The notes beneath the pieces are model-generated. The model did not search any database. It was not told the origin of the DNA and saw nothing but the letters and a program-made list of their open reading frames with translations. A program made the translations under genes and the position numbers. A stretch of DNA of 33,240 bases from NCBI RefSeq assembly GCF_027492755.1, contig NZ_JAPUED010000178.1, positions 11,421-44,660 on the forward strand, written 5' to 3'. The stretch comes from Micropruina sp. (GTDB taxonomy: Bacteria; Actinomycetota; Actinomycetes; Propionibacteriales; Propionibacteriaceae). Positions 2,501 to 7,226 of this stretch are shown here, piece after piece. Each line of letters starts with the position of its first letter. Position 1 is the stretch's first letter.

Positions 2501-2534
2501 CCGCGGATTGGTTGCGAGGAAAGTTGGGGGGAAC

Positions 2535-3812
2535 ATGACCACGCCACCAGAAAACACCGCGCGCGACGACGCCCGAGCGGCGCGTCGAGCCGACGAGACA
2601 ACACCGGCACCACACCATCGACGACCGCGCCGCACCATGCGCGGGGGACTGCCCTTGCGGGCCTATCTGCTGAACGCCGCGGCGATCGGGATCGCGGTGC
2701 TGCTGATTCCGGCGCTGAGCAGGTCGACCGTGACGTCCGCGGTGCCCAGGACGGCCCCGGTGACCACGCCGAGTCCGGTCGCACCGAGTCCGACGGCCAC
2801 GACCACACCGACTCCGAGCGCCACCGCGTCGCCGTTCGTCAACGGACTGCCGACACTGCCGCCCGACGGGCAGGCGAGCCAGGACGGGATCGACCATGAC
2901 GACAGCGTGCCCGCTCCGCCGCCGGCCACGCTGGTGGCGACCAACGGCAGTGCCTTCGTCTCGCCGGTGCCCGGCGCGATCACGGGAGCGTTCGGGCAGC
3001 GCTTCCACCCGATCCTGCACTACTGGCGGATGCACAACGGCGCCGACATGCACGCCGCCTGCGGCACCGTGGTCGTCGCGGCCTACCGCGGCCGGGTGGT
3101 CGAGGCGGGCCGCAACGGCGGCTACGGCAACCTGGTGGTCGTCGACCACGGCCGCTACAAGGGCAAGCACGTGATCAGCAAGTACGCCCATCTGTCCCGG
3201 ATCGGGGTGCGGGTCGGTGATCGGGTCGACACCGGCCAGGGCATCGCGCTGTCCGGGACGACCGGGCTGTCGACCGGCTGCCATCTGCATTTCGAGATCA
3301 AGGAGAACGGCGTCTATGTCGACCCGGCGCCGTACCTGACCGGCAAGAAGTCGCCGCGCCCGGACGGCCCGATCAAGGATCTGGGTCCGACCACCCCGCC
3401 CAGCCCGTCGCCCTCAGCCAGCGCCAGCCCGAAGGCCAGCGCCAGCCCGAAGGTCAGTGCGAGCCCGAAGCCGACCACCAGCCCGACCCGATCGCCCAAG
3501 CCGACTCCGACGCCGACCTCGCCCTCAGTCCGCCCGTCGCCCACGCCGTCCATCACACCGCCGAGCCCGTCACCGTCCGATCCGGAGCCGAGCGAGACGC
3601 CCACCCCGGATGCGCCGAAGCCGACCCCGTCCAACAGCCCGACGCCGTCCGCCGCACCGAGAGAGAGCAAGGCGCCGAAGGATCCGAAGCCGACGGCCTC
3701 GGCCAAGCCCCCGGCGCCCAGCCCGACGCCGTCCGAGAAGGAGGATCCGACGCCGTCGCCGCGTGAGTCGCTGACCGAACGGACGAGTCCCTCGGCATCG
3801 CCCACCCCGTAG
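2535..3812 (+). CDS. membrane-anchored M23 (LytM-type) metallopeptidase
   Basis: I chose the ATG at 2535 because GGGGGGA lies 4 nt upstream; an in-frame TTG at 2508 would add nine residues. The 425-residue protein has a short cytoplasmic basic segment, one membrane helix (about 43-61), a Pro/Thr/Ser linker, and an M23 peptidase domain (about 138-268). The zinc motifs are complete: HNGAD (H167, D171), YAHLS (H219) and HLHFE (H250, H252). It should cleave peptidoglycan cross-bridges or stem peptides outside the cell. Residues 276-425 form a low-complexity Ser/Pro/Lys/Thr tail that includes three ASASPK-type repeats and probably threads into the wall. The RyR-protein gene starts 27 nt downstream on the same strand. 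Confidence 0.9.
   Translation: MTTPPENTARDDARAARRADETTPAPHHRRPRRTMRGGLPLRAYLLNAAAIGIAVLLIPALSRSTVTSAVPRTAPVTTPSPVAPSPTATTTPTPSATASPFVNGLPTLPPDGQASQDGIDHDDSVPAPPPATLVATNGSAFVSPVPGAITGAFGQRFHPILHYWRMHNGADMHAACGTVVVAAYRGRVVEAGRNGGYGNLVVVDHGRYKGKHVISKYAHLSRIGVRVGDRVDTGQGIALSGTTGLSTGCHLHFEIKENGVYVDPAPYLTGKKSPRPDGPIKDLGPTTPPSPSPSASASPKASASPKVSASPKPTTSPTRSPKPTPTPTSPSVRPSPTPSITPPSPSPSDPEPSETPTPDAPKPTPSNSPTPSAAPRESKAPKDPKPTASAKPPAPSPTPSEKEDPTPSPRESLTERTSPSASPTP
3417..3470 (+). repeat. three 18-bp tandem repeats in the M23 tail
   Basis: Units at 3417-3434 and 3435-3452 are identical, and 3453-3470 is a third, diverged copy. They encode ASASPK, ASASPK and VSASPK. Exact neighbouring copies suggest recent slippage, and copy number may vary between strains. 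Confidence 0.8.
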
Positions 3813-3839
3813 GCAGGCGTCCACTATGCTCTGGGCGCG

Positions 3840-6146
3840 ATGAGCGGGCTGATCTCAAGCCGGCGGCGGCGCAGGCTGTTCGCCGCGCCGGTGCATGGCC
3901 GGCGTCCGATCCCGCGCTGGAGTTGGGTCCCGTTCGCGGCGCTGGCCGGCGGTCTCGCCCTGCTGACCGCGCTGCGCGCTCTCGGGCTCGATGGCCCGCT
4001 GTGGTACCTGTGGCTCACCGACGCCCGGCAACCGATCGTTCCCGCGGTCTTCCTGGGTTCGATCGTCGCCGCCGCGGCGCTGTACGGACGGTCACGCAAC
4101 ACCGCTGGGCGGGTCGTCGGCGTGATCTCGGTCTCGGCCTTCGCCGTGGCCGCCGTGCTGCTCGGCCTGGTCTCCTATCTGCACTGCAGCACCGACGGCC
4201 CGCCCTTCTTCGATCAGCTGGTCTGGGTGTTGTCCGGGAACGGCGCCGACCCGTGGGGGTCGGCGCCCGGGTGCCCCGTGCAGCCGCCACTGGCCCACCA
4301 TCTGGCCCGGCTGTGCGCATTGTGGGGTGCGCTGGCCAGCGTGCTCGGGGTGGTGGCCGCCATGTTGCGGCGGCAGCTCGACCGGTGGCTGGCGGCCCGC
4401 GCCGACCGGGCGATCGTCGTACTCGGTGCCGCCGAACAGGCCGCGGCGATGGTCCGGGCCGCGGCCGCCGAGCGGTCGCCGTCCGCCGCGCTGCTGGTCG
4501 TCGACCACACCGGTGACGAGGCGTTCGCCGCGACGGTCCGGTCCCAGGGCGGTCGCGTCGTGGCCGCCGAGGGCGTGGACGCGGATCTGCTTCGAAGCCT
4601 GCTCACCCGGCGTGGCCGGATCGCCGTCGAGACCGTGCAGATCATCGAGGAGCGGGTGCCGGAGGCGCTCAGCACCTTCGCCCAGATCGCCAGGGTGCTG
4701 GACGGCGCTGAGCCGAACCCGGCGCTGGTCAGCCGGGTGCAGCTGCGGATCGACGACCCCTGGGCCGCGGAGAACTGGCGACGCACCGTCACCGGAACCC
4801 AACGGACGTGGCTGGCCGATGCGCTGTCGGCCACCGAACAGACCGCGCGGGCGCTGGTGGCCCGGCTCGACTGGGTGCAGGCGGAGCGCCTGGTGCTGGC
4901 CGGACGGGGTGACCTGGCCGCCGCGGTACTGGCCGAGTTGGCTCGTGCGGAACGCGAGCGCCGGGTGCTGCGCGTGGACCGGGCGGCGGCGCCGTTGCAG
5001 GTGACGGTGGTGGACGAGAGTGCGGCCGAGTTCGTCGCGGAGCACACCGCCCAGCAGGCACGTTTCGGCAACGATTCGGGCCTCGCCGAGGTGAGGGTCG
5101 TCGCCCGGGCCGCCACCGACGCCGTCCTGATCGCTGAGGCGGGCGGCGAGCTGAACACCGTACTGGTCATCGCCGATGACGAGCCGGAGCTCAACCGGCC
5201 CACCCGGCTGGCCGGACAGCTGCCGCAGGTGACGATCCTGGCCGTCGATCCGGCCAGCTCGGAGTTCCCCGACCAGCCTCTGGTGGGCCGGTTGACCAGT
5301 TTCGGCGTCGGGCTGCTCAGCGGCGATGAGCCGCCGGAGGATCACTGGACGCGCATCGCGCGGCTGCTGCACGCGGCCTATCTGGGCCAGCTCGGCGACG
5401 CCGTCGGTTCCCGCCCGTCGTCGCGGCCGTGGACGGAGTTGCCCACCTTCTACCGACAGAGCAATCTGCGCCTGGTCCACGCGCTGCTCACCGGGGTCGC
5501 CCAACTGGGCCGCACCTGGGCCGCGGAGGGAGCCGGCGAGGAACTCAGCGCGGCCGAGATCGACTTCCTCAGCCGGGCCGAACACGAATCCTGGCGCCGC
5601 TTCTACACCGCGCACGGGTGGCGTCCGGGGCCGCGGCGCGACGACTCGCGGTTGGTGCACGACTGGCTGGTCGACTGGGACGGGTTGCCGCCGGCCGCGC
5701 GGATGCGGACCATTGCCGGCGTCCGACGGTCGTTGGCACTGCTCGACACCGCGGGCTACCGCTCGCAGCGGGTGCGCACGCTGGCGCCCTTCCGCAGGCA
5801 CGGCGAAGTGCGGGCCACCCGGCTGACCGAAACCCATCGCTGGCTCACCGAATCCGGTAGTGAGATGACCGGGGCAGCCGGCGACTGGCTGGTCACCGAC
5901 CCGGACACAGGCCGGCAGTGGACCGCCGATCCGCGCGCTTTCGCGTCCGGCCACGAACGGATCGAGGGCGACCGCTACCGCCGGACCGGAACGGTGCTGG
6001 CCCGGCCCGCGCATCTGGGCGAACAGGTCGACACGATCGAGGGACCGGCCCTCGGACACGCGGGCGACTGGCTGGTGCAGGGCAGCCTGGATGAGCTGTG
6101 GTTGGTGCCCACGGCCCGGTTCCGGACCGCCTACGAACCTGTGTAG
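3840..6146 (+). CDS. membrane protein with Rossmann (TrkA/RCK-like), RyR and PGDYG-like domains
   Basis: The 768-residue product begins with about four membrane helices (roughly 28-48, 65-83, 91-113, 155-177). A 40-residue extracytoplasmic loop with two cysteines (C116, C145) and DQLVWVLSGNGADPWG lies between helices 3 and 4. Residues 188-290 look like a TrkA-N/RCK Rossmann unit (AIVVLGAAEQAAAMV, then LLVVDHTGD). Residues 347-515 look like a second, degenerate one (LVLAGRGDLAAAVLAEL, VTVVDE). WTELPTFYRQSNLRLVHALL leads into an RyR domain (about 568-640, EHESWRRFYTAHGWRPGPRRDD...LPPAARMRTI). Two PGDYG-like repeats end it (665-702 GAAGDWLVTD; 728-766 VDTIEGPALGHAGDWLVQG...F...Y). The layout suggests a ligand-gated ion channel or sensor in the membrane; substrate and ligand are unknown. 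TATGCT at 3825-3830 may give it its own near-leaderless promoter. Confidence 0.72.
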   Translation: MSGLISSRRRRRLFAAPVHGRRPIPRWSWVPFAALAGGLALLTALRALGLDGPLWYLWLTDARQPIVPAVFLGSIVAAAALYGRSRNTAGRVVGVISVSAFAVAAVLLGLVSYLHCSTDGPPFFDQLVWVLSGNGADPWGSAPGCPVQPPLAHHLARLCALWGALASVLGVVAAMLRRQLDRWLAARADRAIVVLGAAEQAAAMVRAAAAERSPSAALLVVDHTGDEAFAATVRSQGGRVVAAEGVDADLLRSLLTRRGRIAVETVQIIEERVPEALSTFAQIARVLDGAEPNPALVSRVQLRIDDPWAAENWRRTVTGTQRTWLADALSATEQTARALVARLDWVQAERLVLAGRGDLAAAVLAELARAERERRVLRVDRAAAPLQVTVVDESAAEFVAEHTAQQARFGNDSGLAEVRVVARAATDAVLIAEAGGELNTVLVIADDEPELNRPTRLAGQLPQVTILAVDPASSEFPDQPLVGRLTSFGVGLLSGDEPPEDHWTRIARLLHAAYLGQLGDAVGSRPSSRPWTELPTFYRQSNLRLVHALLTGVAQLGRTWAAEGAGEELSAAEIDFLSRAEHESWRRFYTAHGWRPGPRRDDSRLVHDWLVDWDGLPPAARMRTIAGVRRSLALLDTAGYRSQRVRTLAPFRRHGEVRATRLTETHRWLTESGSEMTGAAGDWLVTDPDTGRQWTADPRAFASGHERIEGDRYRRTGTVLARPAHLGEQVDTIEGPALGHAGDWLVQGSLDELWLVPTARFRTAYEPV

Positions 6147-6250
6147 GCGCTGCAGCTCGGGATGCCAACCGTGGGCGTCCGGTTGCCCGTGGGTTGGAAG
6201 TCTTTCGGGGAATGTCCACGATTCCCGCCTGCGGTTCCCATTGGGCTCGC

Positions 6251-6256
6251 TAACGT
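6251..6256 (+). promoter_or_regulatory. -10 box of ldh, leaderless
   Basis: TAACGT ends 7 nt before the ATG at 6264, and the intervening TCTCCCC cannot serve as a ribosome-binding site. Transcription should start at the A of the start codon. No convincing -35 is visible. Confidence 0.5.
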
Positions 6257-6263
6257 TCTCCCC

Positions 6264-7226
6264 ATGGCGACTTCCTTGAACACCCCGTCCAAGCTCTCGA
6301 TCATCGGAGCCGGCGCGGTCGGTTCCTCCCTTGCGTATGCCTCACTGATCCGCGGCTCGGCCGATGAGATCGCGCTGTACGACCTCGACGAGAAGAAGGT
6401 GGACGCCGAAGTCCGCGACCTGGGCCACGGCAGCCAGTTCACGCCGTCATCGGGTGTGATCGGCGGCAACAACATCGAGGTCGTCAAAGACTCCCACGTG
6501 GTGATCATCACCGCCGGCGCCAAGCAGAGGCCCGGTCAGACCCGACTCGACCTGGCCGCCACCAACGTGAACATCCTGAAGTCGCTGATGCCGCAGCTGC
6601 TCGAGCAGGCGCCGAACGCGCTGTACGTGCTGGTCACCAATCCGTGCGACGTGCTGACCGTGGTGGCGCAGAAGATCAGCGGACTGCCCAGCAGCCGGGT
6701 GTTCTCCACCGGCACGATGCTGGACACCTCGCGGCTGCGCTACGCGATCGCCCAGGCCGCGAACGTGTCGACGGCTCACGTGCACGCCACCATCATGGGC
6801 GAGCACGGCGACAGCGAGTTCCCGGTGTGGTCGAGCGCGCGGATCAACAGCGTCCCGATCCGCGACTGGGTCGACTCCACCGGCAAGCGGATGTTCGACG
6901 AGGTGCTGCTGGCACAGCTCGGCGACGAGGCCATGCACGCCGCCTACACGGTGATCGAGGGCAAGGGCGCCACCAACTACGCGATCGGCCTGACCGGTGC
7001 CCGGCTCACCGAGGCGCTGTTCAGCGGCAAGCGTTCGGTGTTCCCGCTGTCCAGCGTGCTGGACGGCTTCCACGGCCTGAGCGGGGTGGCGTTGTCGGTG
7101 CCCAGCCTGGTCTCCAGCCGCGGCATCGAGCGGGTGCTCCAGGTACCGATGGACGCCCAGGAGATCACCATGCTGAAGCGCTCGGCCGCGACCCTGAAGG
7201 AGTCGCTGAAGGCGCTGGGCTTCTGA
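6264..7226 (+). CDS. ldh: L-lactate dehydrogenase
   Basis: The 320-residue protein interconverts pyruvate and L-lactate with NAD(H) in the cytoplasm. The Rossmann motif [13 protein letters not shown] (GAGAVG at 15-20) binds NAD. The mobile loop [11 protein letters not shown] (84-94) carries Gln at the specificity position, which favours lactate over malate dehydrogenase. DTSRLR (154-159) and [12 protein letters not shown] with catalytic His181 complete the active site. Length equals the family norm. I chose the ATG at 6264 because the upstream in-frame codons back to 6162 are not conserved-looking and a TAACGT box sits 7 nt before it. The gene is monocistronic; repeats forming a hairpin lie just after its stop. 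Confidence 0.95.

Follow-up and report, generated by a model that had tools for sequence, protein, structure and literature searches.

We analyzed a window of DNA from Micropruina sp. (33,240 nucleotides; contig NZ_JAPUED010000178.1, positions 11,421 to 44,660) that contains a gene for a channel-like membrane protein with a ryanodine receptor (RyR) domain. The predicted protein joins four transmembrane (TM) helices, two RCK domains, the RyR domain, and a C-terminal tandem of PGDYG-like repeats (Table 1). Full-length orthologues with 67–76% identity were found in three other Micropruina genomes, and the order of the M23 peptidase gene, the RyR gene, and the lactate dehydrogenase gene was kept across their loci. 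Differences among the orthologues were concentrated at third codon positions (0.37–0.45, compared with 0.13–0.18 at second positions). The full-length orthologues and the third-position bias indicate that the open reading frame (ORF) is a real gene, as an earlier note on this DNA had assumed. A 655-residue antisense ORF (4092-6059) was treated as a shadow ORF of the conserved gene, of the kind seen in high-GC DNA. An AlphaFold2 model of the protein, built from a 71-row alignment, had a mean predicted local distance difference test (pLDDT) score of 87.4 and a predicted template modelling (pTM) score of 0.82. Every domain named in the earlier note was found, and none of the failures that it had listed (no structural match to RyR, no Rossmann fold, no matching repeat fold at the C terminus) occurred.

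Table 1. The RyR-channel-like gene, its predicted domains, and its flanking genes (positions in the window)
Feature	Position	Strand	Architecture or basis
M23 peptidase gene, one flank	2508-3812		
Coding sequence, 768 aa, ATG start	3840..6146	+	4TM-RCK-RCK-RyR-tandem PGDYG-like; orthologues, codon-position differences, model
TM1 (residues 30-47) and TM2 (66-85), extra N-terminal hairpin	3927..4094	+	Model, hydropathy
TM3 (91-113), loop with short helix 123-132, TM4 (151-187)	4110..4400	+	Model; pore-like TM-P-TM unit, pore putative
First RCK/TrkA-like Rossmann domain, residues ~190-330	4407..4829	+	Model, fold comparison
Second RCK/TrkA-like Rossmann domain, residues ~350-490	4887..5309	+	Model, fold comparison
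RyR domain with two leading helices, residues ~500-645	5337..5774	+	Pfam, profile, phmmer, fold match
PGDYG-like repeat 1, residues 649-709	5784..5966	+	Model, hhalign
PGDYG-like repeat 2, residues 710-768	5967..6143	+	Model, hhalign
L-lactate dehydrogenase gene, other flank	6162-7226		

Hydropathy and the model agreed on the four N-terminal helices, and the strongly basic N terminus suggests that this end of the protein is cytoplasmic. Residue conservation was counted over 57 four-TM members of the family. The two cysteines reported for the loop were C116, present in 57/57 members, and C145, present in 55/57; in the model, the short helix of the TM3-TM4 loop lies between them. The two Rossmann-like segments proved to be tandem RCK domains at residues ~190-500, with fold matches (Z scores) to TrkA (15.0), KtrA (14.7), the CASTOR gating ring (14.2), and GsuK (14.1). 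Several GsuK and MthK entries aligned from model residues 77-95 onward and thus included TM3 and TM4; these alignments had high root-mean-square deviation (rmsd) values because the domains are oriented differently. Membership in CASTOR/POLLUX was considered and dropped: the loop motif SGNGAD resembles the filter of these channels, but TrkA, KtrA, and GsuK match the modelled protein as well as the CASTOR gating ring does.

The RyR domain was recognized by Pfam at residues 575-641 (E = 2e-5). The PF02026 bit scores of the window protein were 25.0 and 28.9 in two scans (cut-off, 27.4), and all 13 family members scanned matched PF02026 at E ≤ 0.01. A profile of the family matched RyR1/RyR2 chains with an E value of ~1e-26, and the modelled fold matched a bacterial/human RyR repeat chimera with a Z score of 14.2 and an rmsd of 2.5 Å over 146 residues. 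According to a preprint on the phage protein RyDEP (PMC13232231), phage RyR domains bind 2'/3' cyclic ADP-ribose (cADPR) through H/W/H residues, and RyDEP is a 2'/3'cADPR glycosidase or sponge; its catalytic dyad consists of His75 and Asp117, and its ligand is held by Trp78 and His100. In the phmmer match to 35tm_A, an entry taken to be RyDEP from its name and residue spacing, RyDEP His75, Trp78, His100, and Asp117 aligned with equal spacing to H582, W585, H607, and T624. The ligand residues were retained almost throughout the four-TM members (H582 in 56/57, W585 in 57/57, and H607 in 56/57), and at the position of Asp117 every one of the 57 had A, T, S, or V. The catalytic His/Asp dyad of the RyDEP type was therefore incomplete in the four-TM members, with the His kept in 56/57 and the Asp in none. 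With H/W/H kept and the catalytic Asp lost, the four-TM RyR domains look like non-cleaving ligand binders, which would befit a receptor.

Other arrangements of the RyR unit were also observed. One family member of 924 residues (L015 / L158, 1550-4324; contig G217:C110) has a duplicated RyR unit, recalling the tandem repeats of the animal RyR Repeat12. At the same locus, a gene convergent to the four-TM RyR gene (4351-4833, minus strand) encodes a 160-residue protein that is nearly an RyR domain alone (E = 4e-17), with patatin and several TIR-STAND genes nearby; its product could be an off-switch of the signal-degrading or sponge type. At two further loci, tandem shorter RCK-RyR paralogues of 568–579 residues lie upstream of the four-TM gene (L059, 412-2151; L086, 1844 onward), suggesting possible hetero-oligomers.

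The two C-terminal segments form a true tandem repeat. The halves aligned to each other by hhalign with a probability of 98% and an E value of 4e-14, whereas a control alignment of the tandem with the RyR region gave an E value of 0.13. In the model, the same order of strands and helix occurs twice, ~60 residues apart, at pLDDT values of 94 or more. The likeness to PGDYG proteins proposed in the earlier note was less firm, the Pfam PGDYG family being a weak match: the window protein matched at E = 0.028, and 11/13 relatives matched at E ≤ 0.01 (best, 1.4e-6). Almost no matches were obtained in the class with PF14083 (PGDYG) alone, and none over the Pfam cut-off was seen in the class scan; a tandem profile specific to the family was used instead. 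Among 395 genomes of the class, strong matches to this profile were confined to the channel-like proteins and a single standalone protein from the genome of the window, and weak matches occurred in two further genomes. The suggestion that a pairing of RyR with such a tandem had not been described stood, with no mention of PGDYG found in the literature searched. Three standalone genes of the tandem type sit within ~6 kb of TIR genes. One (L159, genome G013) is ~0.9 kb from a TIR-beta-propeller gene, one (L156, in the window's genome) is ~0.9 kb from a TIR-WD40 gene, and for the third (L191, genome G058), which has patatin nearby, the distance to a TIR-STAND-like gene is ~6 kb. A fourth, weak PGDYG-like match (L192, 6237-6638) was found among phage-type-looking genes in an apparent prophage; a phage version might counter the TIR pathway proposed below.

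We examined the neighbourhood of the family across genomes. A scan of the family alignment against the genomes of 84,980 species yielded 80 loci, mostly from Mycobacterium and its relatives, plus Georgenia, Gordonia, Smaragdicoccus, and Micropruina, and clustering of the neighbours across these loci revealed a TIR protein. A TIR gene was located within ~8 kb in 68/80 loci, 64 of them detected with a first profile and four (L047, L051, L071, and L114) with a broader one. Mycobacterial TIR genes are scarce, numbering 18 in eight genomes with ~46 Mb (1–6 per genome, ~0.4 per Mb), which corresponds to ~0.007 expected per 18-kb locus. In an independent sample of the class, 9/9 non-Micropruina genomes with the four-TM protein had a TIR gene within 6 kb. 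The TIR architectures at the loci were diverse (TIR-PknH_C, TIR-nSTAND1-WD40, TIR-NACHT, TIR-DeoRC, Macro-TIR, and short TIRs), and Pfam TIR_2 was found in representatives of them, including the N terminus of TIR-nSTAND1-WD40. The catalytic Glu was present in 46/46 proteins of the main TIR cluster. In Georgenia, a short TIR gene lies 4 bp upstream of the RyR gene, and on a mobilizable plasmid of Rhodococcus the RyR gene is preceded by a DUF4062 gene and followed by WD40 and TIR genes (NCBI annotation). On a quick family tree with long branches, TIR type and orientation changed ~18 times. Because proximity to TIR persisted through these changes, the association is more than a single gene order inherited unchanged.

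Several genes at these loci were of interest in their own right. TIR-PknH_C proteins are widespread in the mycobacterial loci (e.g., L084, 10350-11879; L069, 10319-11833), and PknH_C is an extracellular domain. They are possible envelope sensors that drive the TIR enzyme, and with such a sensor-type domain some pathways may respond to signals from the envelope instead of phage. A Macro-TIR fusion is located ~3.4 kb upstream of the RyR gene in L113 (3293-4561). At nine loci, the RyR and TIR-STAND genes are separated by a gene for a patatin-like phospholipase, a possible second effector (e.g., L056, 10286-11458).

RyR-RCK proteins with two TM helices, encoded in large actinobacterial genomes (L018-L035), served as a contrast. 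They share the TM-loop-TM unit, two RCK-like domains, and the RyR domain with the four-TM proteins, but lack the N-terminal hairpin, the Cys pair, and the PGDYG tandem. In 11/14 of them, the equivalent of RyDEP Asp117 is Asp. Their loci adjoin housekeeping genes, read from the sequence as those for S-adenosylmethionine synthetase, peptide deformylase, and threonine aldolase. TIR linkage thus goes along with the Cys pair, the tandem, and the loss of Asp that set the four-TM proteins apart.

Known TIR enzymes make cyclic ADP-ribose signals. We propose, with a probability of about 60%, that the window protein is the membrane effector of a Thoeris-like TIR nucleotide-signalling pathway, which may have an antiphage role. 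The TIR enzyme would convert NAD+ to an ADP-ribose-type signal, probably a cADPR isomer, and the cytoplasmic RyR domain would bind this signal without cleaving it. The tandem-RCK unit beneath the RyR domain would be expected to form a gating ring and to pass binding on to TM3-loop-TM4, which would open or be perturbed and thereby change membrane permeability. The outcome would most likely be growth arrest of a cell under infection or stress. In this pathway, the PGDYG-like tandem would provide a second module, which would serve in binding of ligand, oligomer, or partner. We hold a stricter form of the proposal more tentatively, at somewhat under even odds: a TIR-made cADPR isomer would open an ion channel through the RyR domain. 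Bacteria would then have a counterpart of cADPR signalling to ryanodine receptors, the channel would found a new class of TIR signalling effectors, and the PGDYG-like tandem would be one more module dedicated to TIR pathways.

The proposed system resembles the antiphage system Thoeris, in which the TIR protein ThsB is paired with the nucleotide-activated ThsA, in that at most loci of the relatives a TIR gene, with the catalytic Glu in the main TIR cluster, lies beside a gene for a domain of a type that binds cADPR isomers. Thoeris also has macro-domain effectors, which are the topic of PMC11204291. The present effector, however, is 4TM-RCK-RCK-RyR-PGDYG rather than SIR2-SLOG or TM-macro, with RyR and PGDYG-like but neither SIR2 nor macro domains detected by Pfam; and the window copy is not adjacent to TIR. 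It may work like Thoeris but is not classed as Thoeris, since the described effector types are absent and PADLOC gave no match to the RyR-channel-like effector. With RyDEP, the protein shares a PF02026 domain carrying H-x-x-W and the second His ligand residue at equal spacing. It differs from RyDEP in the replacement of Asp117, in its fusion to a membrane and RCK apparatus, and in being cellular rather than phage-encoded and linked to an enzyme that makes the signal rather than countering it. The succession of TM-loop-TM and tandem RCK is that of RCK-gated channels and K+ regulators (GsuK, MthK, TrkA, KtrA, and the CASTOR gating ring), to which the extra TM hairpin, the Cys-bracketed loop, and the RyR and PGDYG-like domains are added. 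Like animal ryanodine receptors, it is a membrane protein, channel-like in appearance, with an RyR domain homologous to their Repeat12, but it has one RyR unit (two in the G217:C110 copy), another pore and gating fold, and ~1/6 of the length.

Besides the missing PADLOC match, several observations weigh against the proposed TIR effector, and they concern its ligand, its pore, and its gene neighbourhood. Judging by their titles, structures of RyR repeats have been solved with ATP, ADP, or AMP-PCP, which makes an adenine nucleotide a possible ligand. Furthermore, no TIR linkage of the two-TM RyR-RCK proteins was found at 20 loci of large actinobacterial genomes. Both observations would suit a channel or transporter regulator gated by ATP, ADP, AMP, or NAD(H), in which RyR and RCK read energy or redox state and TIR is nearby since NAD+ depletion is detected. 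The best RCK matches, TrkA, KtrA, and GsuK, several of them with nucleotides or NAD bound, point in the same direction. We nevertheless consider this explanation unlikely, because a TIR link recurring over so many rearrangements exceeds what a general sensor needs, and the first RCK of the window protein has no clear glycine-rich NAD motif.

The second difficulty is the pore. The TM3-TM4 loop was modelled at a pLDDT of only ~60 in a monomer model, so that a re-entrant pore between TM3 and TM4 is putative. No TVGYG-type K+ selectivity filter was present in the loop, which reads LSGNGADPWG in the window protein and is variable in relatives. The earlier note had proposed that the protein senses a cytoplasmic nucleotide or metabolite and gates an ion pathway. 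This proposal found partial support: it agrees with the tandem RCK, with the ligand residues of RyR, and with a short helix between two TM segments, but a K+-channel filter is lacking. A TIR-linked effector that damages the membrane through signal-driven oligomers, rather than acting as a selective channel, would account for both the absent filter and the poorly modelled loop, and bacterial defence is known to use TM-containing effectors that are responsive to nucleotide signals. We regard it as improbable, given that RCK-gated channels such as GsuK and MthK have this same arrangement of tandem RCK with TM-short helix-TM and that the Cys-bracketed loop is strictly conserved.

The third difficulty is the neighbourhood. 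Much of the mycobacterial TIR linkage is inherited synteny. In addition, no TIR gene lies beside the window copy, and the neighbours in Micropruina are housekeeping-like, which is why the earlier note missed the TIR linkage, the best clue to function. The stable position between the M23 peptidase and lactate dehydrogenase genes, together with the housekeeping surroundings of the two-TM relatives, could indicate an ordinary housekeeping ion or osmotic regulator, with the mycobacterial proximity to TIR reflecting a shared genomic island. This explanation appears very unlikely, as TIR genes are rare and yet adjacent across lineages, in different orientations, and on a plasmid.

If the protein is a TIR effector, the Micropruina copy would answer to a TIR protein encoded elsewhere in the genome. 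On contig C106 of the window's genome (L156), we found a TIR-WD40 gene (2974-5844, minus strand; 956 residues) and, ~0.9 kb from it, a standalone PGDYG-tandem gene (6754-7194, plus strand; 146 residues), with a metalloprotease-like ORF that lies for the most part between them. Among 33 genomes of Micropruina's family, TIR-WD40 was present in 4/4 genomes with the RyR gene, compared with 0/29 without it. This co-occurrence is suggestive, although it may reflect a single subclade, and it makes the unlinked TIR-WD40 protein a candidate trans partner of the Micropruina protein.

The action of cyclic ADP-ribose on ryanodine receptors, and the place where it would occur, have long been in question, and a small bacterial channel-like protein with RyR and RCK domains offers a minimal system for direct tests of RyR ligand binding and gating. 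The RyDEP preprint (PMC13232231, May 2026) presents the homology to RyR as surprising and, in the parts consulted, names no bacterial RyR effector; a further preprint on TIR systems could lower the novelty of the present one. If the proposal is true, it adds a possible ion-flux effector to TIR immunity, including that of non-tuberculous mycobacteria, and could explain why a mycobacteriophage carries an RyR-domain enzyme that destroys cADPR signals.
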